Shown here one piece after another: positions 1 through 32,398 of a stretch of DNA of 32,398 nucleotides (position 1 is its first letter; every line of letters begins with the position of its first letter). The stretch lies in IMG/VR virus record IMGVR_UViG_3300010151_000070, positions 1 through 32,398 of that record; one strand, 5' to 3'. The notes under the pieces were generated by a model that was not told where the DNA came from, made no database searches, and was given only the letters and a program-made list of their open reading frames with translations. Made by a program: the position numbers and the translations under genes. This DNA is from a virus.

Positions 1-123
1 AATCGCCACCACTCACTAGGTCATTCGGGTCACCGTCATAGCAGTAGCCCATCTGACCAAGCTCATCGGCCACGCCATCGCAATCGTTGTCGATGCCATC
101 GCAGACCTCGTCCTCCGGGCCGA
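1..123. repeat. Terminal direct repeat, left copy (circular overlap)
   Basis: These 123 bases are identical to the last 123 bases of the window (32276-32398). The lipoprotein reading frame continues through the join without a break. The simplest reading is a circular genome cut at an arbitrary point, with the overlap left by the assembler; a true short terminal repeat is less likely because it would lie inside a gene. Confidence 0.95.
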
Positions 124-929: not shown

Positions 930-1351
930 GCGTCACCTCTTGGCATTTCAAAAAGGATTTTCTCTGGATCGGCCAAGGCCATCTTGACCATCAGCCTAAA
1001 CTCTTTTCTATCTTTCTCGTTGCAAGTCTTTGCTAGTCTGTCTGCTTGCTTGACCGCATTCGCTATTGCCTTCTTCATTGCCTCGCTGTTGACCCTGCCC
1101 TCGACACCTTTCTCGCTGAGGGCAGTGTTGACCTCTTGGAACACAACGGTTTGCAAGCTGCAAAAGAATGCGTTGACGATCCTCGTTGCCATGATCGCGC
1201 TATCGATGGCAGCCCCAAGGTGAGCCACATAATCGCCACGCGACCGTCCTACCAGGCTGGTTGTTATGGCTGCGAGCACCATCTCTTTGATGTGACCTGC
1301 CACCTCGATTGCTGCCTCATCAGTAGTCTTACTTTCTTCGGCCTCTTTCAC
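926..1351 (-). CDS. Hypothetical alpha-helical protein, 141 aa
   Basis: I prefer GTG 1351 as start because GGGAGGA lies nine bases upstream; an upstream ATG at 1387 has no such site and would overlap the exonuclease gene by 59 bases. The product is predicted mostly helical: an acidic N terminus, a central alanine-rich part, and a basic Lys/Arg-rich C-terminal half. It contains no motif I recognise and no signal peptide. It directly follows the YqaJ exonuclease, overlapping it by 23 bases, and its stop overlaps the start of the 34-aa membrane peptide. It bridges the recombination genes and the surface cassette. Confidence 0.75.
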   Translation of the reverse strand: MKEAEESKTTDEAAIEVAGHIKEMVLAAITTSLVGRSRGDYVAHLGAAIDSAIMATRIVNAFFCSLQTVVFQEVNTALSEKGVEGRVNSEAMKKAIANAVKQADRLAKTCNEKDRKEFRLMVKMALADPEKILFEMPRGDA

Positions 1352-2024: not shown

Positions 2025-2033
2025 GGGCTCCTC

Positions 2034-2897
2034 CTATAGTATTGACGAAACTGACCAGCGGGCCAGTTTGGCTCGGCCATCAGGTCCGTCTTTAACTTGC
2101 AAGTTAAGTCTGAATGGGTCTGCCTCTCTGGCTGCCTTGACGCGCACGTAAACGTCGTTCGTCCAGCCCGGTGTCTTGACGGTGGCCGTGCGATTGAACA
2201 TCGCTATGAGCCCGTCGACCGCCCCATATAAAGCACCCGAACCACGCAGGGCATGGCCGGGTGACCCAACATCAGAAGATGAGGGCTTTCTGAGATGGTG
2301 GATCAGGACGACTGTACTGCCGGTCTTGTCTCTAATGCGCCTGACATTATTGGCGACCGCTATCATCTGACCACTATCGTTCTCTTCGCCCGTATGAGCG
2401 TTCCGCATTGGGTCTATGATTATAACAGCAGGCTTATCTATACCACCTAAGTCACTCATAAATTTAGCCACTGAGTCATCGTCAAAGAGGTCAATCCCAC
2501 CAGAGAAGTTAAAGAACAACGGCAACCCGCGAAGCTCCTGCTCCTTAATGCCCTTGCTTGTGGCCATCGCTCTGACTCTGGCATTGATGTTAGGTGCTCC
2601 ATCTTCGAGCATGACGCAGGCCACTGAGCGCTGCTTGCCATTGGTACTGAAGACCTCGCTCCCAAAGCATGGCGTACCAGACGCCACCGACAAGGCAACC
2701 TCAAGGCCAGCCCAAGACTTTGTGGTCTTGGGCTCACCACCCAAAACAACAAACGATCCATCGGCCACAAGCTGAGACACGCTCCACTCGACGGGTCCAG
2801 GCATGGTGCTGAACATCTTATCGCTGGTGATAAAAGGTCCATACTTCATGACATCCATATAGTCGCCAACAGATACCACATTACTGACCGCCCTCAT
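2034..2897 (-). CDS. RepA-like AAA ATPase (AAA_25), putative replicative helicase
   Basis: A 287-residue RecA-fold ATPase. The Walker A loop is GGEPKTTKS (53-61), the Walker B strand is AVIIID (157-162), and a downstream IHHLRK segment (199-204) matches the sensor-type His pair seen in RepA/AAA_25 proteins. Such proteins act as hexameric helicases or ATPases in phage and plasmid replication. It is the only replication enzyme I can identify, so the phage presumably borrows the host polymerase. The ATG at 2897 follows AGGAGTCGAG and overlaps the end of the sigma gene by 17 bases. Helicase activity is inferred from the family. Confidence 0.8.
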   Translation of the reverse strand: MRAVSNVVSVGDYMDVMKYGPFITSDKMFSTMPGPVEWSVSQLVADGSFVVLGGEPKTTKSWAGLEVALSVASGTPCFGSEVFSTNGKQRSVACVMLEDGAPNINARVRAMATSKGIKEQELRGLPLFFNFSGGIDLFDDDSVAKFMSDLGGIDKPAVIIIDPMRNAHTGEENDSGQMIAVANNVRRIRDKTGSTVVLIHHLRKPSSSDVGSPGHALRGSGALYGAVDGLIAMFNRTATVKTPGWTNDVYVRVKAAREADPFRLNLQVKDGPDGRAKLARWSVSSIL

Positions 2898-3540
2898 CTC
2901 GACTCCTCATTCTGTTCCATAGCCGCCAAACGAATCTCAGCTCATCAATAACCCGGTCATCTAGTTGACCAATCCGTTGCTTCGAGATTCCAATCTCTCT
3001 GCCGGTTTCAGGCTGGTTGAGATGTCTCTCGTAGACCAAACGAAAAATAACATAGGTCCGAGGCGTAAGATAAGTCTTGGCGAGCCGATATAAACGCGAT
3101 CTATCGAGTCTATCGACAATCGTATCCTCTTCTGCCCCATCAGTATTAGTTGCACTTCCATCATGTCCCTCGGTCTGCAATCGATGTTGCTTCTTGGCGG
3201 TGACCATCTCTCTGTTGGCACCGGAGCGTACATAGTAATGTAGGTAGCTTGCCAGCCTCGTGGTGTGTCGTTCCAATTTATAGTTACCAATGCCTTGTAT
3301 CATCGACATGATACATCGATTCATGATGTCGGTCTTGTCACCGCAATAGTAGTTTGGAACCGTGAACCGCTTGAGATACCAGGCCGCAACCCAGACGTTG
3401 TCTTCGATCAGCTTGTTCCTGGCTTTGACGTCGCCATCTTGTGCCAGTCTGATCAACCGCCTCTCTTCGTCTTGAGAGAGGCGGTTGTTATTAGTGATCA
3501 TCTCAGGCGGGATCAGACCCCACTCAGAACGGCGATGCAT
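2881..3540 (-). CDS. RNA polymerase sigma-70-family factor
   Basis: About 219 residues with a region-2-like N-terminal half (LIEDNVWVAAWYL, then a segment like those preceding the -10 binding helix) and a C-terminal region-4 helix-turn-helix, TPRTYVIFRLVYERHL followed by TGREIGISKQRIGQL. It probably redirects host RNA polymerase to phage promoters, most simply those of the structural operon. The start is uncertain: ATG 3540 gives only a 17-base overlap with the SSB gene, but ATG 3501 or a GTG at 3579 are possible and none has a strong ribosome site. The gene lies between SSB and the RepA-like ATPase, so it would be made early. Confidence 0.8.
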   Translation of the reverse strand: MHRRSEWGLIPPEMITNNNRLSQDEERRLIRLAQDGDVKARNKLIEDNVWVAAWYLKRFTVPNYYCGDKTDIMNRCIMSMIQGIGNYKLERHTTRLASYLHYYVRSGANREMVTAKKQHRLQTEGHDGSATNTDGAEEDTIVDRLDRSRLYRLAKTYLTPRTYVIFRLVYERHLNQPETGREIGISKQRIGQLDDRVIDELRFVWRLWNRMRSRDEGGQ

Positions 3541-3874
3541 CGCTCTGTTCTGACTTCGGCTTACCGAGGAAGGTGACACGCTCTGCGATCACCTTCGTCT
3601 TGCGACGTGGGTTGCCTTCCTTGTCCTCCCACCTGTCGACGCTCAGTCGGCCCTCGATGCCAACCGATGAGCCCTTGCCGGTGTACTCGGCCATCAGCTC
3701 CGCTTGCTTGCCAAAGGCCGTCAGGTCAATGAAGATGGCTTCATCAGTACCCTTCTTGCGTCCGTCAAGCGCGATGGCATTGTTCACCACCGGCATGTTG
3801 TCTTTGCCGACCTGCTTCAGGTCGTTGTCTTGGGCTAGTCGCCCCACTAATACTACTTTGTTTATGGTGCCCAT
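3524..3874 (-). CDS. ssb: Single-stranded DNA-binding protein
   Basis: A 116-residue OB-fold protein that begins MGTINKVVLVGRLAQD, the usual SSB start. It has the central segment IFIDLTAFGKQAE, then the strand VGIEGRLSVDRWED. The tail ends S-D-A-S-P-F, a shortened form of the acidic DDDIPF tip that contacts partner proteins. It coats single strands made in replication and recombination. The gene sits between the Rad52-type and sigma genes. The ATG at 3874 follows AAGGAGTAAGCAGCC. Confidence 0.93.
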   Translation of the reverse strand: MGTINKVVLVGRLAQDNDLKQVGKDNMPVVNNAIALDGRKKGTDEAIFIDLTAFGKQAELMAEYTGKGSSVGIEGRLSVDRWEDKEGNPRRKTKVIAERVTFLGKPKSEQSDASPF

Positions 3875-3880
3875 GGCTGC

Positions 3881-4525
3881 TTACTCCTTCAGTTCTGCGC
3901 GACGCGCTAACGCCACTTGGTTAAGTTCATCCCGCATACCTTGCGGAAGTTCTTTGGCGACATCTCGACACCCCGAGATGACCGCCTTTAAAGCATCGTT
4001 GTTTGTCGCCTTGGCAATCTTATTGACGATCTTCCTTAGCGATTTCTTAGCTGCTTCCTCATCGACGGCTGCCTTCGCGTCTGCTCCGCCTTGATGGATC
4101 GGGTTATCTTTTTGATACAAGCTGTTGCCGAACTGATTGCCAAAGGTGCGGAAGCACCTCTTCATGGCATCGGTCACAGCCTCTTTAGACGCCAGCTCAT
4201 AGCAGTCGCCCTGGCTGTTATAGCTGATGCCACATCCGAACCCGACGTCCTCACGGACGACGGTTCCGAGGCTGGTCATCACAGTCAGCTTGAGGGTGGC
4301 GGTCATAAAGACCTTGTTCTGTGTGCGGTCGCCCTTCGGGGTCTCGCAGGTGTCTCGCACCTGCAAGTCCACCAGGCTTGTTTGCCAACCACCGAACCCA
4401 AATATTTCATTGGCTCTATCAATAACCCAATGGCCCTCCACATAAGACAAGCCCTGTCTCTTGCTCACCGCAGTCGGGTTAAGGCCCGCCGTCAGCATCT
4501 TCACTTGGTCTTCACTTATCAGCAT
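3881..4525 (-). CDS. Rad52/Rad22-type single-strand annealing protein
   Basis: A 214-residue member of the Rad52/59/22 superfamily, which anneals complementary single strands during phage recombination. The diagnostic core is near the N terminus: SYVEGHWVIDRANEIFGFGG (about 27-46), followed by beta strands ending in VMTSLGTVVREDVG, then YELASKEAVTDAMKRCFRTF (about 108-127), which fits the DNA-binding helix of the family. The C-terminal third is charged, helical and variable. The ATG at 4525 follows AGGAGGATGCG and overlaps the preceding gene by 14 bases. SSB lies seven bases downstream and the YqaJ exonuclease is in the same operon, as in other two-component systems. Confidence 0.88.
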   Translation of the reverse strand: MLISEDQVKMLTAGLNPTAVSKRQGLSYVEGHWVIDRANEIFGFGGWQTSLVDLQVRDTCETPKGDRTQNKVFMTATLKLTVMTSLGTVVREDVGFGCGISYNSQGDCYELASKEAVTDAMKRCFRTFGNQFGNSLYQKDNPIHQGGADAKAAVDEEAAKKSLRKIVNKIAKATNNDALKAVISGCRDVAKELPQGMRDELNQVALARRAELKE

Positions 4526-4697
4526 CGCATCCTCCTTCTAGGAATCTGTCTATTCTGTCGTTAAGGTCTTGGTCGCGAATGTATGCAGAACCATCTTCTC
4601 TGCTCGCCCCTGATAAAAGAGACAAGAGCATCTCTGCTTCCGTCAAACGCTTTTGCAGACCGAGCAGTTCGCCGCTCTGCATGACAATCGCACTCAT
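4512..4697 (-). CDS. Small helical protein, 61 aa
   Basis: A 61-residue protein whose ATG overlaps the preceding stop (ATGA at 4694-4697). It is predicted helical, with a leucine-rich heptad-like segment (residues 9-29) that could form a coiled coil, and an acidic/basic C terminus. No family is recognised. Its place just ahead of the annealing protein suggests a recombination or replication accessory, but nothing in the sequence proves it. Confidence 0.7.
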   Translation of the reverse strand: MSAIVMQSGELLGLQKRLTEAEMLLSLLSGASREDGSAYIRDQDLNDRIDRFLEGGCDADK

Positions 4698-4963
4698 GTT
4701 CGTGACCCCGCGATCTCTGCTTGGGCGTCTTCCATCCAGCTCATGGCACTGGTGGCATCGATGACGTCGTCACCTGCTTCGGGCTCGGTGGTGGTGATCT
4801 CTACTGGCATCGCGTCGGCCGAGAAAAAGAAGATTTCTTTTTTGCCAGCATCGGTCTGTGCCGAGGCTTTCGTCATGAAGCACCGATACTTTCTGCTATA
4901 CCATGTGCTGATTTTGACTGGGCCTACGATGCCGGTTATATCTATGATATTTTTTGAGTTCAT
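4694..4963 (-). CDS. Hypothetical protein, 89 aa
   Basis: The start is ATG 4963, preceded by GGAGGTGTCGAA and overlapping the stop of the GroES-like gene (ATGA). An upstream in-frame start at 4999 lacks a ribosome site. The N-terminal 45 residues have alternating hydrophobic and polar residues that fit a small beta fold (ITGIVGPVKISTWYSRKYRC). The C-terminal 40 are acidic and probably flexible. No domain is recognised. It is coupled on both sides to neighbours. Confidence 0.75.
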   Translation of the reverse strand: MNSKNIIDITGIVGPVKISTWYSRKYRCFMTKASAQTDAGKKEIFFFSADAMPVEITTTEPEAGDDVIDATSAMSWMEDAQAEIAGSRT

Positions 4964-5289
4964 TTCGACACCTCCTTCTCGTACTGGTCTGCGTCCCACG
5001 AGGCGTAGATGTCTTCCTGTAGACAGAAGACGTATTGGCCTGCCGAACTCGCCTTATCGAGCGCGTTCTTTAGCACTAGGCAGTGTGTGCCTGGTGCAAT
5101 GTTTGCGTCGGGGCCGCTGTTCACCACCTCATGGACGAGCGCGTTCTCGTACTGAGTGACGCCTTCGAGCGTCGCGATGCGCTGCCCCAGGTCTGCTGGC
5201 AGTAGACCTCTTAGCAGCACCTTGTCGCCGTGTAGTTTTATAGACTTCGCACTAAAGTCTATAGACTGCATATAATAGTTAACGCTCAT
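4960..5289 (-). CDS. GroES-like co-chaperonin (putative)
   Basis: I start this 109-residue protein at ATG 5289, nine bases after AGAGGT; a longer form from 5334 has no site and overlaps the preceding gene. The pattern fits the cpn10 fold: IKLHGDKVLLRGLLP at residues 16-30 corresponds to the P-x-D-R-V-L-V strand, a variable stretch stands where the mobile loop would be, then ALVHEVVNSGP (V-x-x-V-G-P-like turn), and the ending YVFCLQEDIYASW resembles the E-x-D-I-L-A end of GroES. Phage co-chaperonins such as T4 gp31 adapt the host GroEL to fold the coat protein. Assignment is by pattern only. Confidence 0.5.
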   Translation of the reverse strand: MSVNYYMQSIDFSAKSIKLHGDKVLLRGLLPADLGQRIATLEGVTQYENALVHEVVNSGPDANIAPGTHCLVLKNALDKASSAGQYVFCLQEDIYASWDADQYEKEVSK

Positions 5290-5536
5290 TTGTGATGACC
5301 TCTTTCTTTTTTGGTGGTGGTTTTGACAGCCCAAGTGACTGCCTTAGAAAAGTCTCTAGCCTCGCCTTAGTCAGCTTACTGGCTTTCGACAGCTCCTCTA
5401 AAGGGAGCTGTCGTTCATGGTACTGCGAGATCATCCAGCCAACTGTCGGGTCGGCTGGTTGGTAGCAATCGTGGCAGTGCGAATCACCACCTATTGCGAA
5501 TGTCTCTGTCTTGCACTTTGGGCATACGCTAAACAT
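5279..5536 (-). CDS. Zinc-ribbon plus helix-turn-helix protein (putative regulator)
   Basis: An 85-residue protein with two CxxC pairs, Cys5/Cys8 and Cys21/Cys24, forming a likely zinc ribbon. Then comes PLEELSKASKLTKARLETFL (45-64), which has the spacing of a helix-turn-helix, and a basic Lys/Pro-rich tail. The ATG at 5536 follows GGAGGATTAAG. It is a reasonable candidate for a transcription regulator that could act at the repeated operator sites of this genome, but there is no direct evidence; a zinc-binding adaptor is an alternative. Confidence 0.6.
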   Translation of the reverse strand: MFSVCPKCKTETFAIGGDSHCHDCYQPADPTVGWMISQYHERQLPLEELSKASKLTKARLETFLRQSLGLSKPPPKKKEVITNER

Positions 5537-5562
5537 CTTAATCCTCCTCTGCTCACCCTACC

Positions 5563-5796
5563 TTAAATCCACTGGTTTATGAATCTATCCACATGTTCTT
5601 TAGCGAACGCGATGCGCTCGGAGCCATAGCGACTACAGGCCAGTGAACTATCCACCTGCGATACCGTGTGTCCACGGATCGACATGTGGTGATGGAACTG
5701 CCGGGCCTCATATAGATTGCTGAACGCGCATAGTTCATCGTGCTCGTATCCCGGCTCAAGTGGGTCTCGATGTATTGCTATGTAAAATCCTCTCAT
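5563..5796 (-). CDS. Hypothetical protein, 77 aa
   Basis: The start is ATG 5796, with GGAGGA seven bases upstream; the upstream in-frame ATG at 5811 overlaps that site and is less likely. The product is small, mixed alpha/beta in appearance, with many aromatic and His residues (HRDP, HHHMS-like region near residues 35-40). No family is recognised. A stable hairpin lies directly upstream of its ribosome site. Confidence 0.7.
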   Translation of the reverse strand: MRGFYIAIHRDPLEPGYEHDELCAFSNLYEARQFHHHMSIRGHTVSQVDSSLACSRYGSERIAFAKEHVDRFINQWI

Positions 5797-5812
5797 TTTC
5801 TCTTCCTCCATA

Positions 5813-5836
5813 CATACCCCCCGTAGGGGGGGTATG
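5813..5836 (-). other. GC-rich hairpin directly upstream of a ribosome site
   Basis: A perfect 10-bp stem (5813-5822 with 5827-5836) and a four-base loop fill the space between the nuclease stop codon and the GGAGGA of the 77-aa gene. There is no T-run after it on the transcribed strand, so it does not look like an intrinsic terminator. A similar hairpin precedes the gene at 30240. It may affect mRNA processing or translation start. Confidence 0.75.
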
Positions 5837-6172
5837 TTATGTACGCCATTTCAGGCCGAGTTTAATCCAGTCGGTCAACCACATGGTGACCATGGCTTTC
5901 TTTCTATCATCTCTAGTGACAGCCACCGGGATGCGACTGGTGTCATCATAGTCCCTCTCGGCGTCTGTGGCTTGTTCTAAAGCCTTCTTAGGGTTCGTCC
6001 TAGCACCGACTTTAGCTTCGACCCAGAAGTCGCTTAGAACGACGTCTGGTGCGTCTGAGCCTGATCGGGACTGGAAGCCCCTCTTGGCTTCCGCGAACCC
6101 CGCCTCTCGTAAGATCTTGGCAAGCTCGCGCTCCCATCCTGCGCCCTTGTCTCTGGATCTCTTACCACTCAT
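5837..6172 (-). CDS. PDDEXK-type nuclease, Holliday-junction-resolvase-like
   Basis: A 111-residue protein with the layout of small archaeal/phage Hjc-type nucleases: basic start, a Glu in GWERELAKILREAGF (12-26), an Asp in SDAPDVVLSD (39-48), and the catalytic E-x-K in FWVEAKVG (about 49-56), followed by a helix and the strand RIPVAVTRDD. Such enzymes cut branched DNA during recombination or packaging. The ATG at 6172 overlaps the previous stop (ATGA). Whether it resolves junctions or is a general nuclease cannot be told from sequence alone. Confidence 0.75.
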   Translation of the reverse strand: MSGKRSRDKGAGWERELAKILREAGFAEAKRGFQSRSGSDAPDVVLSDFWVEAKVGARTNPKKALEQATDAERDYDDTSRIPVAVTRDDRKKAMVTMWLTDWIKLGLKWRT

Positions 6173-6393
6173 TCGGCCGCCCCTCCCAGGCTAGTGTCTT
6201 GACCTATAAATAGAGACACTGACATCGTTCCGGTGGAGGTCTCCACCACAAGTTCAAGCGCCTGGGTCTCGTCTTCGACCCACTTTACTACGCTCATTGG
6301 CACCGCCACTCTCTCGATGCGGCCACGGTCGACATCATACACCTGATGCGTAAGGGCTATCGACTTTATATTATGGACGTTGAGGCTTAACAT
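6169..6393 (-). CDS. Hypothetical beta-rich protein, 74 aa
   Basis: A 74-residue protein starting at ATG 6393 after AGGAGTAAGCA. It alternates hydrophobic and charged residues in short strands (IALTHQVYDV, ALELVVETSTGTMSVSLFIG) and is probably an all-beta fold. No domain is recognised. It overlaps the upstream gene by 23 bases and is coupled to the nuclease gene downstream. Confidence 0.7.
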   Translation of the reverse strand: MLSLNVHNIKSIALTHQVYDVDRGRIERVAVPMSVVKWVEDETQALELVVETSTGTMSVSLFIGQDTSLGGAAE

Positions 6394-6802
6394 TGCTTAC
6401 TCCTGAAGACAGCCACCGCAACCATAGCGTGGTTTTGGTCCTGTTGGTTGTTTCTTTATCATCCAAAACCTGAGAGGGTGATCCGATGTGTTCAAGAAAA
6501 GCGCCCCACCCTTGCTCGGTCACAAAAATGGGGCACGAGGATTCAGCGAGAATCTCTTCGGCCCTATTAAAATACTCCTTATAGACCTTGCCGTACCCAC
6601 CCCGACATGCCTCTTTAAGAGGTGTGAACTCAATCGATTCGATGATGGAATGCATGAGGCTGGGTGCTCCGTAGCGGTCAATGAATACGACCGCGATCTT
6701 GCAGACAGCCTCGTAGGTATCGCTATCGCAATGCCGAACAAGTCCGTTGTCAACATCCTCGCCTTCTCTCATGAGCTTCCTTGCGGTGATCTCTTTGATC
6801 AT
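6371..6802 (-). CDS. Hypothetical protein, 143 aa; first gene of the recombination/replication operon
   Basis: I start this at ATG 6802, preceded by AAGGAGGGCGAT; an upstream ATG at 6826 has no ribosome site. The product is about 143 residues, soluble, with several Cys. No known family is recognised. It is the first gene after the operator-bearing gap at 6803-6943 and so probably the first gene transcribed in unit 1; its role could be in early takeover or control. A weak -35/-10-like pair (TTGATT, 17 bases, TTGTAT) lies just upstream. Confidence 0.75.
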   Translation of the reverse strand: MIKEITARKLMREGEDVDNGLVRHCDSDTYEAVCKIAVVFIDRYGAPSLMHSIIESIEFTPLKEACRGGYGKVYKEYFNRAEEILAESSCPIFVTEQGWGAFLEHIGSPSQVLDDKETTNRTKTTLWLRWLSSGVSNVKPQRP

Positions 6803-6880
6803 ATCGCCCTCCTTGCCGTGATACAAGCGAAGACCATACCAAAAATCAAGTGGCTGATTTTGTTTGCTTTATTGTCGTGG

Positions 6881-20998: not shown

Positions 20999-21781
20999 CT
21001 ATCTCCCTATAGATTCTAAGAATGTAACCATGTCATCAGCCGAATGGCCCTCAATCGGAGCTGCTGCTCCTTGCGAACTAACCGGCCGGGGTGCCGTTGG
21101 CCCACCATGTTGCCTGGCAAGCCTTGCTTTATAATGAGACACCCGTTGTGAATCGATCTCTTTTGCGATGGTCTTCATCGTCTTAGTATCAGACTTCTGA
21201 AACCTAAGAACCAGCTCTTCTGCCGTTACCGTGGGATACTCCTCAGCAAGCGTCTGAGCTTCTTCTATAATCTCTTCGGCCCTCGCCTCAACCGCCCTTT
21301 GTGTCTCGCTCTGTCGACGCCTCTGAGAGGCTTCTGAGTCGAGTTTAGATCGGATCTCTCGTTCTTGATCTTGAGCCTTCAAACGACGAATCTCTTCATC
21401 TCTTGGGTCCGGCTCATCAAAGACACGGAGCTTGTCTTCAGTCTCTAAAAGCCGCCGCTGCATGATCTCAAAGCCTTGCTTGTACTCGGCTAATTGATCT
21501 TCAAGCTCACTGGCCCTAGACTCAACCCGCTTCCGGGCTGCCTGAAGTCCATTGATCCGCCTAAGAAAGGACTTCTTAGGGACCATCTCTTCCGCTGCTT
21601 CGGTTTCGTCTTGGGACTCATCCTCAGCTTTGGCTTCGACATTATCGGCGTCGGGGCCGTCACCCTCCTGGGCGGGCTGAGATTGCGAATCCTCAGTAAC
21701 GCTGTCTTGCTCAAGGGATGAAACCATCTCTTGGTCTAAGGATGGCGAGTCCTCTATAACGCCATTATCATCGTTCATCAT
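20999..21781 (-). CDS. Scaffold protein
   Basis: A 260-residue protein of typical scaffold composition: a long acidic, Asp/Glu/Gln-rich N-terminal third (residues 1-65), a central coiled-coil region (ASELEDQLAEYKQGFEIMQR, then EEIRRLKAQDQEREIRSKL), and a basic C-terminal part before the tail. Scaffolds direct coat assembly and are then lost or cut. It lies immediately upstream of the coat gene, with two bases between them. The ATG at 21781 follows AAGGAGTGCATCTAGT; ATG 21778 is equally possible. Confidence 0.75.
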   Translation of the reverse strand: MMNDDNGVIEDSPSLDQEMVSSLEQDSVTEDSQSQPAQEGDGPDADNVEAKAEDESQDETEAAEEMVPKKSFLRRINGLQAARKRVESRASELEDQLAEYKQGFEIMQRRLLETEDKLRVFDEPDPRDEEIRRLKAQDQEREIRSKLDSEASQRRRQSETQRAVEARAEEIIEEAQTLAEEYPTVTAEELVLRFQKSDTKTMKTIAKEIDSQRVSHYKARLARQHGGPTAPRPVSSQGAAAPIEGHSADDMVTFLESIGR

Positions 21782-21802: not shown

Positions 21803-22015
21803 CTAGGGCGCTCCCGTGAGCGCCTTGCCAATGACGGCTGCCAGTCCAGCAAAACCGCCAGACACAGCACCCCAAACTCTAGCCTTCACCCTTAACTCTG
21901 CGATGTGCTCCTTATTAGATACAACTTCTTTATGAACATCATCAAGGCTTTTCTGGTGACGGTCGAGCGCATCAAGAACCATCTTCTGATACTCGTTCCA
22001 GCCGTTGTTATTCAT
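21803..22015 (-). CDS. XhlA-like small coiled-coil membrane protein, 70 aa
   Basis: I start at ATG 22015, six bases after GAGG; a TTG at 22021 is less likely. Residues about 8-45 form an amphipathic coiled coil (VLDALDRHQKSLDDVHKEVV), and the C terminus has one hydrophobic span, VWGAVSGGFAGLAAVIGKAL. This layout matches XhlA-type and related holin/lysis accessory proteins. It overlaps the HExxH lipoprotein gene by eight bases. It could be a second holin or an inner-membrane spanin-like partner of the exported block. Confidence 0.55.
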   Translation of the reverse strand: MNNNGWNEYQKMVLDALDRHQKSLDDVHKEVVSNKEHIAELRVKARVWGAVSGGFAGLAAVIGKALTGAP

Positions 22016-22544
22016 AATCAACCTCGATGTATTCTATATAGTTATTCACCTCAAATATGAGGTTCTCATGTTCATGTGTCCACGGACTGGATGGGCCGTC
22101 CAAGTGTCTGTAGCCAGGGTCCTTTTTTGTAGCCCAGAGCGCAGCGTGTACCATCTCATGAACAAATGCTGTCTCATGTAGCGCATCCTTCTCTGCCACA
22201 AACATAGTGCCGTCAGGATAAAGAAGGCCATAATAGACCTTCTCTGTCTCTGGTATCTTAAGGAACTTGCCACCTTCTTGCCAATGTATCTTGAGTGCAT
22301 CGAGGGCCTCAATGATGCCGACCGATTCCTCTGGGCCGAATATCTCAACCCATCGCCAAACGAATATCTGCATGGCCGTACTAACCAATGCCGCATCGTA
22401 CTTGCCGTCCGTCTGCCTTGCCTCCCATCCCGGTATCTTTTGTGTACAAGTATTCTTTTCATACTTATAAAACTCCGGTCTGGTGTCGGATGCGAAAGCG
22501 CATCCGGCAACCAGAAGCAGGACCAATAAGGATCTCAATCGCAC
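22008..22544 (-). CDS. Exported lipoprotein with HExxH zinc-peptidase motif, 178 aa
   Basis: The likely start is GTG 22544 (TTG 22538 is possible and would overlap the upstream stop). The signal peptide RLRSLLVLLLVAGC ends in a lipobox, so Cys15 should be lipidated, with Ala next to it. Residues about 130-165 contain HEMVHAAL, an H-E-x-x-H zinc-binding motif, followed about 25 residues later by acidic Glu/His positions (HEHENLIFE). It is therefore a probable envelope-anchored metallopeptidase. A phage-encoded exported peptidase within the structural module is unusual; it could act on cell wall, spanin-like targets or host surface proteins. The substrate cannot be told. Confidence 0.65.
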   Translation of the reverse strand: MRLRSLLVLLLVAGCAFASDTRPEFYKYEKNTCTQKIPGWEARQTDGKYDAALVSTAMQIFVWRWVEIFGPEESVGIIEALDALKIHWQEGGKFLKIPETEKVYYGLLYPDGTMFVAEKDALHETAFVHEMVHAALWATKKDPGYRHLDGPSSPWTHEHENLIFEVNNYIEYIEVDYE

Positions 22545-23131
22545 ATACCCCAGCTGCAAGAGAAAGAGCAGCAGTCACTTGGCATAGTACAGGGTGTCAT
22601 CGACCCGCCGCAGCCACCACCGCCGCCACCTGCGGTACATACCGTAGGTGGACCACCAGAACAGGTTTCTCCCGTGTCATCGTTGCAGCAGTCTGAGCTG
22701 GCGGTGCATGGGTCACCTGTCCCTACGCAACACTCACCTCCTGTACACCCAACCGTGCCTACAACTTGGCAGCAACAGTCGCTGCCGGTGCAAGATGCGT
22801 TGATGGCCTTGCAGCAATTTGAATCGGTGCAACAGTTAGAATCAATGCAATCCGTACTTCCATCGCAGTCTTCATCTATGCTGTCGTTGCAGGTACTCTC
22901 TGTCGCAACGCACTCCTGAAGGGTCTTCCAGCCTGATCCAGTGCATAGCTTATTCTTGTTGTCTCCATCGTACAGCATCGTTCCTTCTGAGTATCCTGAG
23001 CATGAGCTGCTTAAGGTGCTGTCAATGATAGGCACCAGAATCCCAAAGTTGCCTAGACCCACATTGACTGCGAGTAGTGTAGCAGGCACTGCCAATACTA
23101 GGAGCAATGCTATCCTCACATTGGCTCTCAC
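22535..23131 (-). CDS. Secreted Cys-rich protein, 198 aa
   Basis: The gene starts at GTG 23131, overlapping the previous stop (GTGA). A signal peptide (VRIALLLVLAVPATLLAV) is followed by NVGLGNFGILVP, nearly the same as in the next gene upstream, and by EGTMLYDGDNKNKLCTGSGW, a G-x-M-x-Y-D...C-x-G-x-x-W motif common in fibre-like proteins. Residues about 75-198 hold some thirty cysteines, in patterns such as CNDSIDEDCDG (like a MopE motif) and repeated CC pairs. The mature protein is probably disulfide-knotted and outside the cytoplasm. Function unknown. Confidence 0.7.
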   Translation of the reverse strand: MRANVRIALLLVLAVPATLLAVNVGLGNFGILVPIIDSTLSSSCSGYSEGTMLYDGDNKNKLCTGSGWKTLQECVATESTCNDSIDEDCDGSTDCIDSNCCTDSNCCKAINASCTGSDCCCQVVGTVGCTGGECCVGTGDPCTASSDCCNDDTGETCSGGPPTVCTAGGGGGGCGGSMTPCTMPSDCCSFSCSWGMCD

Positions 23132-23352
23132 TGGTTCACCATCTTCTTATAGTCGGCTCCGTTGCAGTAGTGAGCCCTGTCTGTGACTGTGTCATAGTAC
23201 ATCAGACCTTCCCTGTCTGCGTCGCAATCGTCTGAGTCCCGCCCGGCGTCATGCGGTAACAATATGCCGAATTCGCCAAGTCCGACGTTGGCCGCGTAGG
23301 CCATGACTGGCACGGCCAGGATGGCAAGAACTATAAGAATCCTCTTCTTCAT
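23128..23352 (-). CDS. Small secreted protein, 74 aa, paralogue of the Cys-rich neighbour
   Basis: A signal peptide, MKKRILIVLAILAVPVMAYA, is followed by ANVGLGEFGILLP and then EGLMYYDTVTDRAHYCNGAD. Both segments match the 198-aa neighbour (NVGLGNFGILVP; EGTMLYD...C), so the two genes probably arose by duplication. The ATG at 23352 follows AGGAGATAAT. It is short, with two cysteines, and probably acts outside the cytoplasm or on the virion. Confidence 0.7.
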   Translation of the reverse strand: MKKRILIVLAILAVPVMAYAANVGLGEFGILLPHDAGRDSDDCDADREGLMYYDTVTDRAHYCNGADYKKMVNQ

Positions 23353-23360
23353 ATTATCTC

Positions 23361-24308
23361 CTATAGCTGGCAGTCGTCGTCATCGAATGTCCCGAGTGTA
23401 AGTGTCGCCTTGACTTCGTATGCAGATCCATCATACATGCAGATGCATAATGCAGATCCGTCATCAGTCTGCATGTACCACATTGCCCCGTTCTCGTCCT
23501 CATCGTCAGCAGTAGAGCTATCGCAGAAAGCACTAGGAACATCTACTCCTCTTATTCTGGTTGGGCCAGTGCGAAAAACAGTAATGCCCTCGATGCCGCT
23601 TATCGTATCCATAGTTAGATGAAGCTGGGAAGTATCAGTAGTCGAATTTCGTCTAATTCCAAGTGTCCCGGCAGTGCTGGCTGCACCGGCACTGTCAGTA
23701 ATCATCCTTACTCCAGAGGCGTGGGCGTCAGAAGAATTGGTAACCATCAGAAGATTATTGCCTGAGGTTGTACGCTCGAAGGTTACATCGTTGGCCAGGA
23801 CTGCTACCGATGAGTTCCCAACCGTCACTTCATCCGTTCCAGCATTCGCATCGAGATAAATATATCCGACCGTCGAGTTAGTCTCCAGGAAGATGTCTCC
23901 GCCGTATGATGCGTTGCCGCTGCACGTACCCGGACAACTCGATCCCGTATTACAGCACTCGCTTGACGACGTACACGACTCACCTTCACCCAAGCATGTG
24001 CCTGCGTACTGTCCTTGGTATGGTATATCCAGCGAGGTTTTGAGAAATAGATGTCGCGAACTATAAAATTGTTCAGGCTCTATCTTGCTGTAGAGGCTAC
24101 TTGACGTATTTCCTACCATTATATTTGACCCCGCCGTATTTTCAGATGAGAATCGGTTATTTGAAAAAATAGCGCCAGTCATCTCACATCCGGCCAAGGC
24201 ACAGTACAGTGACCCGAGGGCAGAATCGTTAAGGCCGCTGCCAGTGATGGAAGCCATCATAATAGGCACCGACAGCAACAAACCTGCAATCAGTAATTTT
24301 ATCTTCAT
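23361..24308 (-). CDS. Secreted fibre-like protein, 315 aa
   Basis: A signal peptide (KIKLLIAGLLLSVPIMMA) precedes a Ser/Thr/Gly-rich beta protein with a short Cys cluster (CLGEGESCTSSSECC, about 106-120). The C terminus, NGAMWYMQTDDGSALCICMYDGSAY, is a longer form of the G-x-M-x-Y...C...G-x-x-Y motif seen in the two downstream secreted neighbours. Beta-strand repeats around residues 140-270 resemble phage tail-fibre or decoration regions. The start overlaps the previous stop (TAATG). The signal peptide is odd for a virion protein. Confidence 0.65.
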   Translation of the reverse strand: MKIKLLIAGLLLSVPIMMASITGSGLNDSALGSLYCALAGCEMTGAIFSNNRFSSENTAGSNIMVGNTSSSLYSKIEPEQFYSSRHLFLKTSLDIPYQGQYAGTCLGEGESCTSSSECCNTGSSCPGTCSGNASYGGDIFLETNSTVGYIYLDANAGTDEVTVGNSSVAVLANDVTFERTTSGNNLLMVTNSSDAHASGVRMITDSAGAASTAGTLGIRRNSTTDTSQLHLTMDTISGIEGITVFRTGPTRIRGVDVPSAFCDSSTADDEDENGAMWYMQTDDGSALCICMYDGSAYEVKATLTLGTFDDDDCQL

Positions 24309-24685
24309 TATCTAGCTCCTATGCAGGTCAGATTAACACTTCCGGCTGAGAGACACCGTGGTGCACCGCGAACATCAATCGAAATGGCAGCATCTATGCA
24401 GTCAGATGACGTACATATTGGATACCCCTTGTCAGTTATATTGACATCGTCACCGCCGATCCAGACCTTAGTGGCCGAGGGATTCATACAACGAACTGTA
24501 TTGTAATGAGTGACGGCGGCAGACGTCAGGGCCACGCCGCCGGACGTCGTGTCGCAAACAACCCGGAACGCCTTGACCTTGCTCGCTGGGTTAGACAAGG
24601 CATTGGCCTGCGGCTGTAACGCGACCCATGTGACGACGCATATAGCGGCAAGCACTGACCCGGCGGTTAAGATTCGTTTCATCAT
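24308..24685 (-). CDS. Exported Cys-containing protein, 125 aa
   Basis: The N terminus MMKRILTAGSVLAAICVVTWVALQ is a signal peptide or anchor with a likely cleavage site near ANA (about 27-29). The mature part is a small beta-like domain with six Cys (V-V-C, R-C, I-C, D-C-I, R-C, T-C), probably paired. The ATG at 24685 overlaps the portal stop (ATGA) and follows AAGGAGTACCACA. It is the first of the exported block. No family is recognised. Confidence 0.65.
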   Translation of the reverse strand: MMKRILTAGSVLAAICVVTWVALQPQANALSNPASKVKAFRVVCDTTSGGVALTSAAVTHYNTVRCMNPSATKVWIGGDDVNITDKGYPICTSSDCIDAAISIDVRGAPRCLSAGSVNLTCIGAR

Positions 24686-26463
24686 TGTGGTACTCCTTGA
24701 GGTTGTTGCTGTTGAGCTGCAACGAGCTGTTGATCATAGTATTGTTTCAACTGCCAAAGCATGCTCTTTAGATTGGGGTCTTGCTGAGTGTCGATGGATC
24801 GTCCAATAACAGATGATGCCAGTTGCGGGTTGACCTGTGCTGGTTGTATGAGGGTTCCTGCCGCTGCTGATTGTATCATCTGATTAATGAGTTCTATTTC
24901 TCTTGCCTGACCTTCAGTGTATTCAAGGCCAGTCTCTGATCGCTCTGCAACGGTTGCTGGATCTTCAAGTCCGGCTTGTGCTCGCTCAACAATATCCTTA
25001 GCCTTCTGAGCATGATAACGAGACATACCTGTTCTCGGCTCAAGGCGAACACCGACGCCATCAATGTCTGCGCCCACAAAAGGAACGACCGTCATGGATC
25101 TGTCCTCGCCAACTATGCGTATCAATCTCGGCATGGAGTAAAACTGCCTTACAAGGTGAAGTGTTATATTCCATAAATTTAATAAGAACTTCTCAATGTG
25201 TCTAGCCGTGCCAGCATTCTTCATAGAATCCAACTGACTAAGATACGCAATCTGTTTGGCAGACGTTCCTGACTTAGCGCTCTCTGCTCCAGTAAGAATC
25301 TCATTGAGTCCAGCTATGTCATAAAGCCTGCGCTCAAGACGGTCTCTATCTCGAAACAAAATCTCATTGATCTTCGGTGGCTCTAGCCACCGAATGGTTT
25401 GCGACTTCTGGACGTCATCCACTTTGATCATGTGGTTGTCGTCCTCCCACGTTTCGATGACATTGCTTGGTGCCAGGAGCTTGACTGCTCCAGTATCTCG
25501 CCTGAGCTTAACCAGCACGGACTCGATCTCATTTATCTGTCTTTGAATAGGCACCGCATCGTTCATCCATGTATCGCCATAAACAGTGCCTCTGATGTAG
25601 CCAACCTTAAAAAGGCTGAGAGGAAGGAACGATACGGTCTTGTCGCTCTCAGGGTTTTCGATGGACTTGAACACATAAGGATAGTCCATTTTGCTTACTA
25701 CATTGCCTCCGACGATGAGAGCATACAGGCCCTTTTTCAGCCTAACATCTGGCCTGTACCATATCTCATAAACAGGAATGCCCTTCCTGGTCTCTGAGTC
25801 GCCTATGGTGTACTCTTCCTCTGCAACGTCTGTTGTTCTGACCTTGCCTTCCTTGAGAAGTGCTCTGGCCTCATGCTCGTTTATGTACCGTCTAAATATA
25901 ACCCACCCCGCATCATCAGGGTTCTCTGTCGGGTCAATATAGAAGTCAAAGATAGTAACGAGATCCCAGCGGATCTCGTCATTATCTGGGTCATAATACG
26001 CCTTGATGCCCCCGAGTCCGTGAGCGCATGCAGACTTCAAGATGTCAAACATCTTTTGGTCAACGCGGTTCTCTGACTCTATGAACTCTATAAGGGACGA
26101 TGCTGTCTCAGCAGCTTGTATGTCGCCAGGTTCTGCACTGTTAGGAAACGCTGTAACTGATGGACGGTCCTGAAGCAGGCGTTGACACCAGGTCAGCACG
26201 AGGTTTCTGATTAGGTTGTGAGATACTTGAGGGATGTCTGAGTTCCATGGCACGTCCTCTATTGTGCCTGACCTCCTGTCAAGATCCCTGAATTGATCGC
26301 CGCTGACGTGAAGTTCGTTACGCTCGGCAAGCCTGGTATACTTGGCTGCCGCCTTCTCACCTTTGTCCTTAAGCTCATTAAACAGGTCAAGGATTGTCAG
26401 CGATGTGCCGTCTTCATTCTTGGCGATCTGATAGTCTTTGCCGTCTGCGTTGCTGATGCTCAT
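24682..26463 (-). CDS. Portal protein (P22-type)
   Basis: A 593-residue portal, the twelve-subunit ring at the head vertex that DNA passes through. It is in the usual range for P22-like portals. Supporting features are the N-terminal helical domain, IPQVSHNLIRNLVLTWCQRL (about 77-96), the wing-type strand region WDLVTIFDFYIDPTENPDDA, the segment AVPIQRQINEIESVLVKLRR, then LNEILTGAESAKSGTSAKQI (common in portals of this class), and a Gln-rich end. It follows the terminase genes with three small genes in between. The ATG at 26463 overlaps the preceding stop. Confidence 0.85.
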   Translation of the reverse strand: MSISNADGKDYQIAKNEDGTSLTILDLFNELKDKGEKAAAKYTRLAERNELHVSGDQFRDLDRRSGTIEDVPWNSDIPQVSHNLIRNLVLTWCQRLLQDRPSVTAFPNSAEPGDIQAAETASSLIEFIESENRVDQKMFDILKSACAHGLGGIKAYYDPDNDEIRWDLVTIFDFYIDPTENPDDAGWVIFRRYINEHEARALLKEGKVRTTDVAEEEYTIGDSETRKGIPVYEIWYRPDVRLKKGLYALIVGGNVVSKMDYPYVFKSIENPESDKTVSFLPLSLFKVGYIRGTVYGDTWMNDAVPIQRQINEIESVLVKLRRDTGAVKLLAPSNVIETWEDDNHMIKVDDVQKSQTIRWLEPPKINEILFRDRDRLERRLYDIAGLNEILTGAESAKSGTSAKQIAYLSQLDSMKNAGTARHIEKFLLNLWNITLHLVRQFYSMPRLIRIVGEDRSMTVVPFVGADIDGVGVRLEPRTGMSRYHAQKAKDIVERAQAGLEDPATVAERSETGLEYTEGQAREIELINQMIQSAAAGTLIQPAQVNPQLASSVIGRSIDTQQDPNLKSMLWQLKQYYDQQLVAAQQQQPQGVPQ

Positions 26464-26777
26464 CCTTCAAGAACCTTTGAAAGGTCTGTGTGATACGGAT
26501 GCTCGGAATCCCAATTGTCTAGCAGCTCTTGGAGTTTGCCCTTCAAGTCTGAATCATCGTCAACGTCTGGGGTTGATTCGTCATAAGACTCATCATCATC
26601 ATCGGTGGCACCCTTAGCGCAAGCACCCTTAGCGCAAGCACCCTTAGCGCAAGCACCCTTAGCGCAAGCACCCTTACTGGTATCCTTCGTTATCTGTATC
26701 TCTGCCGCCATGCTATGGCTGGCCAAGGACTTTGCCAGATCTTCAACCTGGTCTGATATCTCTCTAGGTAACTTCAT
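26460..26777 (-). CDS. Small acidic protein with KGACA repeats, 105 aa
   Basis: A 105-residue protein with a helical N terminus (ISDQVEDLAKSLASHSM), four tandem KGACA units plus a partial one (residues about 35-57), then a strongly acidic segment (DDDDESYDES, and DVDDDSD) and a charged C-terminal helix. The repeats come from a 15-bp DNA repeat and give four cysteines at even spacing. It sits between terminase and portal and may be a head or packaging accessory. The start at 26777 follows AGGAACAACA. Confidence 0.6.
   Translation of the reverse strand: MKLPREISDQVEDLAKSLASHSMAAEIQITKDTSKGACAKGACAKGACAKGACAKGATDDDDESYDESTPDVDDDSDLKGKLQELLDNWDSEHPYHTDLSKVLEG
26608..26676. repeat. 15-bp tandem repeat, 4.6 copies
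   Basis: A 15-base unit (plus strand gcacccttagcgcaa) is repeated exactly at 26608, 26623, 26638 and 26653, with a nine-base fifth partial copy to 26676. It encodes the KGACA repeats. Because the unit is five codons, slippage changes protein length without shifting frame. Confidence 0.95.
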
Positions 26778-28701: not shown

Positions 28702-29205
28702 TTATTTATCACTTTCGTCATCTTCCATTAGCGCGACTCTGAGTTTGTTTGCGGTATCGTCTTCATAAGAAGTCTCAGGCAAGGTCTTTAGCACGTGAGA
28801 AAGTATTGAGGAGATCACGGAGCCCTCCTTGGCTCCGAGATCACCAATCCTTATCTGGTGTATTGTCTCGACCGCTAACTGCCTGACATCGTCTGGTGTT
28901 TCTAGTTTTGGGGCCACCATCTTAATATTTAATATCTTATCTTTACTTAGCTTTGAACCTCTCATCCTGGCTTCTTTGCGAGCGTCGATCAGCTCCGGGT
29001 CATGGAAGTAACAAAAGAGCGAGTCGGCCTGACGGCCGCCTCTGCATAAAAGCCCTGTCTTGAGGCGAACAATACAGTAGGGATGGGTGGAAAGCTCCTC
29101 ACTAGAGGCAACCCCCTTAGAGATCTTGGCGGTCCATTTCTCTCTGTTGTCATCAAGATAAAGTGTAGCCCACCTTAAATCCTGGGTGATCTTAGCCTTT
29201 GGCAT
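28702..29205 (-). CDS. Putative terminase small subunit
   Basis: A 167-residue protein directly upstream of the large terminase, which is the main evidence. It contains a Cys/His cluster, LLCRGGRQADSLFCYFHDP (about 53-71), that could bind zinc, a basic middle (EARMRGSKLSKDKILNIK) suited to DNA binding, and a C-terminal helical part that could form the oligomer. Small terminases recognise the phage DNA to start packaging. The ATG at 29205 follows GGAGG with nine bases between. It is the first gene of the late unit. Some other DNA-binding protein is possible. Confidence 0.6.
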   Translation of the reverse strand: MPKAKITQDLRWATLYLDDNREKWTAKISKGVASSEELSTHPYCIVRLKTGLLCRGGRQADSLFCYFHDPELIDARKEARMRGSKLSKDKILNIKMVAPKLETPDDVRQLAVETIHQIRIGDLGAKEGSVISSILSHVLKTLPETSYEDDTANKLRVALMEDDESDK

Positions 29206-29648
29206 GTATGCAAACCTCCTACCTATTTGAGAATTTCAACGGGGGTGCGAATTGGTAATCGACGTAATGGTTAGAGCGTGGACCTTGGACCTTTAAGCCT
29301 TGGGGCTCGGCTCCAGAGGGGGTGTCAATTATTTGACGCGTCATTTTTTTGACGTCAATTTCTTGGCGCGTCAATATTTTGACGCCATTCTTCTGACGTG
29401 TCAAATGTTTGACGTCATATATCTGACATGCTTCGTTCAGGCTTCGGCTTGTGGTCTTGGTCGGTGGTGGTTTGCTGGCGGGTTGTGGTGGTGGTGGATG
29501 TGGGAGGCGGCACCATCCATCCCTGCATCCATCCCTGCCATCATCATCATCCAAACCTTGCCACCTCCACCCATCCATAACACCATGACGCACTGCGTCA
29601 TTCCATGGCACAAAAAAAGGAGGGCACCCTATGGCACCCTCCTTTTTT
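29206..29648. other. Non-coding control region upstream of the late genes
   Basis: A 443-bp gap holds, from left to right, a possible promoter zone next to the small terminase gene (a TTGACA hexamer on the minus strand at 29328-29323, with no matching -10), the iteron array at 29335-29430, a purine/pyrimidine-biased stretch with CATCC repeats at about 29513-29550, a palindrome ATGACGCA/TGCGTCAT at 29585-29601, and the terminator. Minus-strand frames that cross it run through the repeats and the terminator and look like shadows. Confidence 0.7.
29335..29430. repeat. Iteron array A: 30-bp period, GACGYGTCA/GACGTCA units
   Basis: GACG-type cores begin at 29335, 29351, 29365, 29381, 29395, 29411 and 29425, with strictly alternating spacing of 16 and 14 bp, so the true period is 30 bp. 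Long units are GACGYGTCA followed by a T-rich spacer, short units GACGTCA or GACGCCA with a spacer. Each core is itself near-palindromic. The same unit types, in the same direction, make up array B at 31393-31490. They are likely protein-binding sites for replication or late transcription control. Confidence 0.85.
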
Positions 29649-29650
29649 TT
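29612..29650 (-). terminator. Rho-independent terminator (can act in both directions)
   Basis: A stem of GGAGGG/CCCTCC extended by seven A/T pairs (29612-29624 with 29637-29650) and a 12-base loop is followed on either strand by a T-run. It begins just after the stop codon of the 43-aa gene (29649-29651) and closes the GP88 operon. Confidence 0.9.
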
Positions 29651-29780
29651 AACTTTCATGCTTTGGCATTGGCTCATCAACCCAATCGAATTGGGCTTCT
29701 GTCTCGTCCGTCTCTGCGTCTGTTTGGTCATCATATTCAGCATGCCTTCGCATCCATTCTTGATGCTCTTCTTTGTTCAT
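29649..29780 (-). CDS. Small acidic protein, 43 aa
   Basis: This short gene starts at ATG 29780, five bases after GAGGTG and overlapping the previous stop (ATGA). The product is soluble, Glu/Asp- and Trp-containing (MNKEEHQEWMRRHAEYDD at the start, ending MPKHES). It is the last gene of the GP88 unit; its stop lies at the foot of the terminator. Small acidic early phage proteins often inhibit host enzymes or mimic DNA, but that is only a guess here. Confidence 0.6.
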   Translation of the reverse strand: MNKEEHQEWMRRHAEYDDQTDAETDETEAQFDWVDEPMPKHES

Positions 29781-30046
29781 CTCTTCACCTCATGGTTGTG
29801 GTTATAGCCCATTTCTTGGCCGGTTAAACCGTCGTCATTCAAAATGATCTCACGGTCACCCATTTTCCTGGTCCAAACTAATTCACGCAGCCACGTTTGA
29901 CCGTGTGATTCTATCTCGTCCGGCCCAGCTGAGAGCGCCTCGCGGTCACCCGGTCTTAGGTCGGTCAAGACCCCGTCCTCACCTCCTGCAACCACGTGGC
30001 CCGCATCCGTCAATTGCCTCATAAGTATTTTCTGTTTTTTTATCAT
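29777..30046 (-). CDS. Hypothetical protein, 89 aa
   Basis: An 89-residue protein with a basic N terminus (MIKKQKILMRQLTDAG) and a mixed charged body (DLRPGDREALSAGPDEI), ending in a His/Asn-rich tail (NHNHEVKR). The start at 30046 follows GGAAGGTGAGACC and overlaps the previous stop (ATGA). No family is recognised. Confidence 0.65.
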   Translation of the reverse strand: MIKKQKILMRQLTDAGHVVAGGEDGVLTDLRPGDREALSAGPDEIESHGQTWLRELVWTRKMGDREIILNDDGLTGQEMGYNHNHEVKR

Positions 30047-30240
30047 GGTCTCACCTTCCTTTTCTCTTTAATCCATTTAGCCATGCGACCAATGGCTTTA
30101 GAACTCAATTTGTACCGAGACCCATAATGGTCTCGCCCGCTCATTTCTTCGGCCCTTCTTAGGGCCTTAATTTCTTCTTCATGTTCTTGGCACCACGCCT
30201 CATGCGCTTGATACCAAGTTAGATCAATCAGTTTTTTCAT
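30043..30240 (-). CDS. Hypothetical basic helical protein, 65 aa
   Basis: I start at ATG 30240 (MKKLIDLTWYQAHEAW), preceded by GGAGGTAGCACA; an upstream start at 30294 would run through a hairpin. Two helices with many Lys/Arg/Glu and a basic C terminus (KWIKEKRKVRP) suggest nucleic-acid or protein binding. It is a second candidate for the protein that binds the operator repeats, since it lies in the operon controlled by them, but no known HTH is evident. Confidence 0.6.
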   Translation of the reverse strand: MKKLIDLTWYQAHEAWCQEHEEEIKALRRAEEMSGRDHYGSRYKLSSKAIGRMAKWIKEKRKVRP

Positions 30241-30253
30241 TGTGCTACCTCCA

Positions 30254-30275
30254 CCCAGCCCCCCGTGGGGCTGGG
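30254..30275 (-). other. GC-rich hairpin directly upstream of a ribosome site
   Basis: A perfect 9-bp stem (30254-30262 with 30267-30275) and a four-base loop end one base before the GGAGG of the 65-aa gene. It is not followed by a T-run. It resembles the hairpin at 5813-5836 in stem length, loop size and distance to the ribosome site. Confidence 0.75.
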
Positions 30276-30286
30276 TTATGTTGTTA

Positions 30287-31550: not shown

Positions 31551-31598
31551 TGTAGACGCAACTTTATGTAGACGCAACTTTATGTAGACGCAACTTTA
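31551..31598. repeat. Three perfect 16-bp tandem repeats at the lipoprotein stop codon
   Basis: The unit tgtagacgcaacttta occurs at 31551-31566, 31567-31582 and 31583-31598 with no mismatch. The last copy supplies the stop codon of the MopE/VWA lipoprotein gene (TAA, 31598-31596). It adds to the repeat-rich region that extends down to 31290. Confidence 0.95.
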
Positions 31599-32398
31599 GT
31601 AACACTCATCTGCATGCAGCCCACTCATATCTTGTATCATCATAATAGACACAGACAGATACTTAACTGTACCACCTGTCTCGGCGGCGATGCTGGTGTA
31701 GCTATAGATTGCTGTTGGGCTAGTGAACACCCAGGTTACGATGCCACTGTCTGCCAGCTCCTCGGCTGCATCTATCTCTGTGACTGGTGGTGCTGCGAAG
31801 CTCTGGCCATACTCATCACTGAAGAGCACGATGTATTTGCTGGCACCATCACGCCACCCGATGCTGATGGCATCGGTGGCGATATCATAGAGCACATCAT
31901 ACGATGGTTCCGATCCACCATTGTTTGCAGATATGCCGCTCAAGAGCGGCATGACGTCCACCGCTGGCGCTACATCAGAGATCACCACAGACCCTGGCGA
32001 TGCGCCATCAGGGATTATCACCAGCCCGAACTGATGGTCTTCGGTGGTGACAAAGTTACTCATGAACTGCTCGGCCGTATCAATGGTAGCTCCAAGTAGC
32101 GAGCCCATTGACCCAGAGGCATCGATCACAAACACAGTATCTGTCATGTCTGTGATGCCATCATCGATCAGCCCGTTGCAGTCGTTGTCAATACCGTCGC
32201 ACGTTTCATGCGTCGGAAGCTTTTGGTTGTGGCATTGCTCGGCACCGTCGATGCATAAGATCAACCCGGCGTGGCAATCGCCACCACTCACTAGGTCATT
32301 CGGGTCACCGTCATAGCAGTAGCCCATCTGACCAAGCTCATCGGCCACGCCATCGCAATCGTTGTCGATGCCATCGCAGACCTCGTCCTCCGGGCCGA
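31596..32398 (-). CDS. MopE/VWA lipoprotein, C-terminal part (starts at GTG 508 across the junction)
   Basis: This is the 3' part of the 395-residue lipoprotein; it continues from the opposite end of the window. It contains the second MopE-type motif, CDGIDNDCDG, which repeats part of the left-end sequence, the third motif CDGIDNDCNG at about residue 195, and then a von Willebrand factor A domain. The metal-site motif D-x-S-x-S is present as IDASGSM (Asp221), with further likely ligands in NNGGSEPSYD and VLFSDEYG. VWA domains bind other proteins through a metal ion. Related Cys/Asp-rich plus VWA proteins are familiar from myxobacterial surfaces; finding one in a phage genome is unusual. The start at 32348 suggested by the linear end is an artefact. 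Confidence 0.85.
   Translation of the reverse strand, partial: GPEDEVCDGIDNDCDGVADELGQMGYCYDGDPNDLVSGGDCHAGLILCIDGAEQCHNQKLPTHETCDGIDNDCNGLIDDGITDMTDTVFVIDASGSMGSLLGATIDTAEQFMSNFVTTEDHQFGLVIIPDGASPGSVVISDVAPAVDVMPLLSGISANNGGSEPSYDVLYDIATDAISIGWRDGASKYIVLFSDEYGQSFAAPPVTEIDAAEELADSGIVTWVFTSPTAIYSYTSIAAETGGTVKYLSVSIMMIQDMSGLHADECY
32276..32398. repeat. Terminal direct repeat, right copy (circular overlap)
   Basis: Identical to bases 1-123. It marks the circular closure of the genome, so these bases should be counted once. Confidence 0.95.

Follow-up and report, generated by a model that had tools for sequence, protein, structure and literature searches.

The window analysed here, meaning the whole stretch of 32,398 bp in an IMG/VR virus record, is a complete phage genome: a direct terminal repeat of 123 bp closes the record into a circle, and the contig ends are an arbitrary cut point inside the gene of a MopE/VWA lipoprotein. 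From the JGI sample numbers and the kind of matches obtained, the phage is probably marine. Between the portal gene and a scaffold-like gene lie five consecutive open reading frames, named E1 to E5 here, all of them found on the minus strand at 22008-24685, where the initial annotation had placed them. The features of the locus are as follows.

1-544, minus strand: MopE/VWA lipoprotein, N-terminal part, with a hydrophobic leader and a lipobox-like FLTSC
20999-21781, minus strand: scaffold-like protein, on the other side of the E1-E5 block from the portal
21803-22012, minus strand: small conserved gene (phrog_1103) with a C-terminal hydrophobic segment, the downstream border of the slot
22008-22544, minus strand: E5, lipoprotein of 178 aa (LVAG↓C) starting at GTG, with HEMVH; the best conserved of the five between the window and its relative G001
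22535-23131, minus strand: E4, 198 aa, GTG start, predicted signal, E3-like N-terminal domain, tail containing 28 Cys, a MopE-like motif and knottin-like clusters
23128-23352, minus strand: E3, 74 aa, predicted signal at about 1-20, minimal C...G.MYYD...CNG domain with 2 Cys
23361-24308, minus strand: E2, 315 aa, predicted signal at about 1-19, fibre-like mosaic with 12 Cys and the C-terminal motif C..G.M.Y..LCICM.DG..Y
23815-24215, minus strand: exchangeable middle module of E2, allele A, whose 401 bp match the unrelated contig L003 at 95% nucleotide identity
23922-23996, minus strand: knottin-like six-Cys cluster in the E2 module, CLGEGESCTSSSECCNTGSSCPGTC, a pattern match
24308-24685, minus strand: E1, 125 aa, directly behind the portal, predicted signal at about 1-29, mature beta-sandwich domain with 6 Cys
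24682-26463, minus strand: P22-type portal (Pfam P22_portal 2.7e-21, PHROG portal 1.8e-36), overlapping the start of E1
31596-32398, minus strand: MopE/VWA lipoprotein, C-terminal part; the gene starts at about 544 and continues across the terminal repeat

Portal and E1 share an ATGA, E1 and E2 share one base, and E4 overlaps both E3 and E5; this layout suggests a single polycistron that includes the capsid genes. A scan for promoters and terminators gave results no better than chance. Between the window and G001 (the same phage as locus L002), pN/pS is 0.13-0.54 for E1-E5, with E5 the most constrained, and 0.28-0.41 for portal, terminase and capsid; the full range recorded for the cassette is 0.13-0.61. 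Judged from these substitution patterns, E1-E5 are real, constrained genes under purifying selection.

Some features of the surrounding genome are recorded in their own right. The short phrog_1103 protein is kept beside the scaffold in most relatives. Between terminase and portal, the window (26460-26777) and L002 (9093-9476) encode a small protein with tandem Cys-containing repeats, KGACAKGACAKGACA in the window and KDMCPKDKSGKDMC in its relative, and without an export signal. The early module of the window (926-6826; RecE, SSB, Rad52-like and sigma-like genes) shares its strand with the structural genes; in G001, G008, G009 and G015 it lies on the opposite one, as if the whole module had been inverted. 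This 32-kb phage also encodes, at 2881-3579, a sigma-70 region 4 protein (PF04545, barely above the cut-off), which could drive the late operon.

Export signals and even cysteine numbers

Signals were sought with a crude, rule-based scorer for a basic n-region, an uncharged hydrophobic core and an AxA-type or lipobox site. Among the 43 curated genes of the window it was positive for exactly E1-E5 and negative for the other 38; in the window and ten relatives together, 15 of 346 ATG+SD genes scored positive, slot genes counted in. When E1-E5 were shuffled as whole proteins, 0.7-9% of the shuffles still scored positive, E1 being the weakest case (9%). The signals of E1-E4 end in signal-peptidase-I-type sites, and a lipobox occurs among the five in E5 only. 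Homologues of E1-E4 in related and unrelated phages keep a signal-type N-terminus though its letters differ.

After the predicted signal, mature E1-E4 and all their homologues contain an even number of cysteines: 6, 6, 4, 4, 4 and 4 in E1, 12, 12 and 12 in E2 (with 4 in a shorter relative), 2, 2 and 2 in E3, and 28, 32 and 28 in E4. Counts within one family are not independent, but the values vary among members and remain even. Cysteine accounts for 2-16% of E1-E4 and their homologues. The corresponding figure is 0.55% for the remaining genes of the stretch that runs from the internal proteins to the portal, and 0.93% for all remaining genes of the window. Such even and high cysteine content fits disulphide-bonded periplasmic or secreted proteins. 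Taken together, the signal peptides, the even cysteine numbers and their conservation in homologues make it well supported, at the level of sequence, that E1-E5 are exported and are not ordinary virion parts.

Could the hydrophobic N-termini instead belong to virion or ejection proteins, as segments for membrane insertion or assembly? Podoviruses do possess membrane-active ejection proteins (PMC8954989). Against this stand the even cysteines in all homologues, the cleavage-site motifs and the lipobox, as well as the cysteines that E1 has gained relative to its cytosolic homologues (see below), and we regard a mistaken signal call as decidedly unlikely.

The initial annotation had described five consecutive signal-peptide genes between portal and scaffold, one of them an HExxH lipoprotein, and had counted six exported products by including the MopE/VWA lipoprotein. 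All three statements hold: the scorer picks exactly the five genes, E5 combines its lipobox with HEMVH, and G001 has a related MopE/VWA gene that is unbroken (29138-30280, counted with the terminase on the plus strand) and encodes the lipobox LLLMS↓C. The VWA lipoprotein contains the MopE-type metal-binding motif (PF11617), and E4 resembles it weakly; the matches are short and, in the window, sub-threshold, and the whole proteins are unrelated.

HEMVH is present in both copies of E5 (window and G001), which is a putative zinc peptidase. A SprT-like profile scored 12.1-13.3 bits (E 0.08-0.18) against a cut-off of 25.6, and the AlphaFold model of E5 is poor (pLDDT 43) and not usable. E4 matches the knottin-like pattern several times, the pattern being common there by composition. 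Matches of toxin families to the knottin-like clusters are marginal and far below the cut-off; the SprT-like and toxin-family assignments were both set aside on that account. As a separate observation, the DNA of the E5 signal peptide is nearly identical between the window (22008-22544) and L002 (13280-13816), with a pS of 0.03 over the first 20 codons against 0.64 overall, which suggests a recent exchange at that point.

The HEMVH of lipoprotein E5, the knottin-like clusters and an M15-type endolysin encoded separately from the block would be in keeping with an attack on the envelope, in which the peptidase and the Cys-rich proteins weaken the outer membrane beside the endolysin or strike competitors after release. 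However, E5 is seen only in the window and G001, the toxin-family resemblance is as slight as just described, and the module swapping reported below is not expected of lysis factors, so that we hold a lysis role to be one of the less likely explanations.

Distribution of the block and exchange of the E2 module

Terminase searches yielded 18 and then 25 loci. In five of the related phages E1 lies directly behind the portal, always signal-bearing: the window, G001, G008, G009 (where it is frameshifted) and G015. What follows E1 varies, from no further exported gene in G015 to one exported protein of 314 aa in G009, two of 219 and 149 aa in G008, and E2-E5 in the window and G001. In G004, G005, G006, G007, G010, G013 and G014 the slot is taken by one or two signal-less proteins of 121-227 aa. 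By whole-genome tallies, this one slot accounts for almost every exported gene in the related phages; the other clear case is the VWA/MopE lipoprotein, present in both the window and G001.

Two contigs, L003 (9,067 bp) and L035 (5,187 bp), have different head genes from the window. Compared with 28 window genes, their open reading frames give convincing matches in the cassette genes only (best other E 0.019). L003 has E1-E4 and another exported gene, L035 has E1 and the start of E2, at which the contig ends, and in both the cassette lies downstream of the capsid gene. Because these contigs share only cassette genes with the window, it is the cassette itself that moves, not the slot alone. E1 with a signal is present in seven records, the few cassette carriers found, which are metagenome contigs. 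A further exported family also occurs in both phage types (L024 8801-9250, 149 aa; L003 8866-9066), the two being 43% identical over the aligned part.

A viral scan with E3 brought up no new carrier, and nothing significant was matched when E1-E5 were compared by tblastn with 50,697 phage records. Scans with E1 and with the terminase found no relatives, and therefore no sign of lysogeny, in the GTDB genomes searched. This result bears on the possibility that the block consists of passenger genes (morons) kept for host benefit, or of host-like surface proteins without a role in the lytic cycle, a view encouraged by the resemblance of the MopE/VWA protein and the Cys-rich repeats to host-type surface proteins. 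Besides the scans, the conserved place in the late operon and the purifying selection count against passenger genes, and we judge them, too, less likely.

The middle of E2 is 92-100% identical between the window and L003, with far flanks at 35-62%. L002 and L035 have the other allele in common (95-100%), and L003 and L035, which belong to one lineage, are 92% identical where E2 begins and 40% identical within the module. Across the two phage types, identity is 95-100% in the module and 35-75% in most flanking blocks. The pairing of the window with L003 and of L002 with L035 means that two E2 alleles both occur in both phage types. Of 5000 shuffles, 2 contained the six-Cys spacing that CLGEGESCTSSSECCNTGSSCPGTC shows in allele A; the Cys cluster of allele B is spaced more widely, and the knottin-like pattern misses it. 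A swapped middle between conserved ends is how the specificity modules of receptor-binding proteins evolve, and the E2 pattern, as read from these alignments, appears typical of specificity determinants.

E2 of L003 contains a fibre-type VGIN.ATPTADLDV motif in a stretch that matches phrog_5906, a family of uncharacterised function. The mosaic domain swapping and the beta-fibre motifs of E2 recall tail fibres with exchangeable domains. Unlike these, E2 has a signal peptide and 12 Cys, and the window E1-E4 gave no significant Pfam or PHROG match, hence no recognised fibre family for the window E2. Fibres of tailed phages are assembled in the cytoplasm without an export signal, whereas the proteins here carry signals and even numbers of Cys.

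An AlphaFold2 model of E1 built with seven mature sequences is moderate (pLDDT 71, pTM 0.60). Among viral models it matches many uncharacterised phage proteins of 85-95 aa (best A0A516LWE0, E 1.4e-6; Gordonia phage Bakery, 5e-4), and a fold search against the PDB returned weak cupin-like matches only. Bakery gp39 and Tangent gp25, both of Gordonia phages, sit among structural genes. Tangent gp25 matches the E1 profile with E 7.4e-5 (probability 62%, over 35 columns) and phrog_30212 with 1.2e-5, and two of the five E1 members match phrog_30212 (best E 0.021). The family is like E1 in fold, in the motif VRxxNxxxTxVYIGxxxVTxxxGYP and in profile comparison, and unlike it in being cytosolic and in lacking both a signal peptide and all four of the Cys conserved in E1. 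We take E1 to be the exported form of a common cytosolic phage beta-protein, one that has acquired an export signal and disulphides. Comparison of the E1 profile with the non-exported slot proteins of close relatives gave no signal, and homology with them is not claimed.

Since the E1 family is otherwise cytosolic and found among virion genes, we keep a virion-related role open. E1-E4 might be matured and disulphide-bonded in the periplasm and become attached to virions only once lysis brings periplasm and cytoplasm together, with E1 as an adaptor and E2 as a receptor-binding fibre bearing swapped, knottin-bearing modules. The fold and motif that E1 has in common with Tangent gp25 and Bakery gp39, the place of the slot inside the head operon in both phage types, the fibre-type motif of L003 E2 and the resemblance of the module swapping to that of receptor-binding proteins all favour such secreted fibres. 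No precedent was found for a tailed phage adding Sec-exported parts after lysis. We consider secreted virion fibres improbable on balance; they are nevertheless the main rival, and more novel than an action on the envelope.

A candidate tool for altering the infected cell's envelope

What could a phage gain from exporting five proteins encoded among its capsid genes? Our preferred explanation, to which we give a probability of roughly 45%, is that the block is a transferable cassette that remodels or masks the envelope of the infected cell late in infection. Built into the late structural operon, E1-E5 would be translated together with the capsid genes and carried out by the general export machinery of the host. 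E1-E4 would become disulphide-bonded and E5 a lipoprotein with a putative zinc-peptidase site, and the exported proteins would then act on the envelope of the infected cell. The interchangeable, knottin-bearing middle of E2 would confer specificity, with E1, E3 and E4 assisting and E5 trimming or anchoring. The most likely purpose would be to mask or alter a phage-bound surface structure, so that rivals are kept out late in infection and progeny do not stick to debris. We infer export itself, the place of action, receptor masking and the enzymatic role of E5 from sequence features; masking would fit both the swapping of a specificity module and the advantage of keeping progeny from being lost on debris.

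There are partial precedents. Llp of T5 (PMC9586334) and Rtp45 of phage Rtp (PMC12685063) are superinfection-exclusion lipoproteins, exported by the infected cell, which block receptors and keep phages from adsorbing to lysed fragments. Like these, the proteins described here are phage-encoded and would be exported to the periplasm or outer membrane, and E5 is likewise a predicted lipoprotein, alone in having a signal with a lipobox. In contrast to Llp and Rtp45, which are single small proteins, the set here is multi-gene, disulphide-rich and fibre-like, lies in a structural operon and is exchanged between phage types. The late-operon position counts against receptor masking, as known superinfection-exclusion proteins are often made early (PMC9586334). 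The kinship of E1 with a cytosolic protein and the presence of non-exported proteins in the slot of relatives could also point to a virion role.

The initial annotation had proposed that the exported proteins form a surface-modifying system of the infected cell. Of this, the export is well supported, and the role appears the best of the explanations weighed; the sharing of the cassette with unrelated phages, the allele swap in the middle of E2 and the cytosolic family of E1 had been missed. That parts of the block are swapped between unrelated viruses suggests that E1-E5 are a so far undescribed means of altering the infected cell's surface, and searches of an open-access literature library turned up no account of such a cassette.

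Envelope-altering proteins of phages have mostly been found as single genes. If our reading is true, a multi-gene, disulphide-rich export cassette in a capsid operon, common to unrelated marine phages and diversified by module swapping, would add a new level to the competition between phage and host or among phages, and it would make it possible to ask concretely whether the specificity modules of phages can work away from the virion. Should E1-E4 instead reach the virions, one of the basic rules of how tailed phages assemble would have to be revised, as a component would be made outside the cytoplasm.
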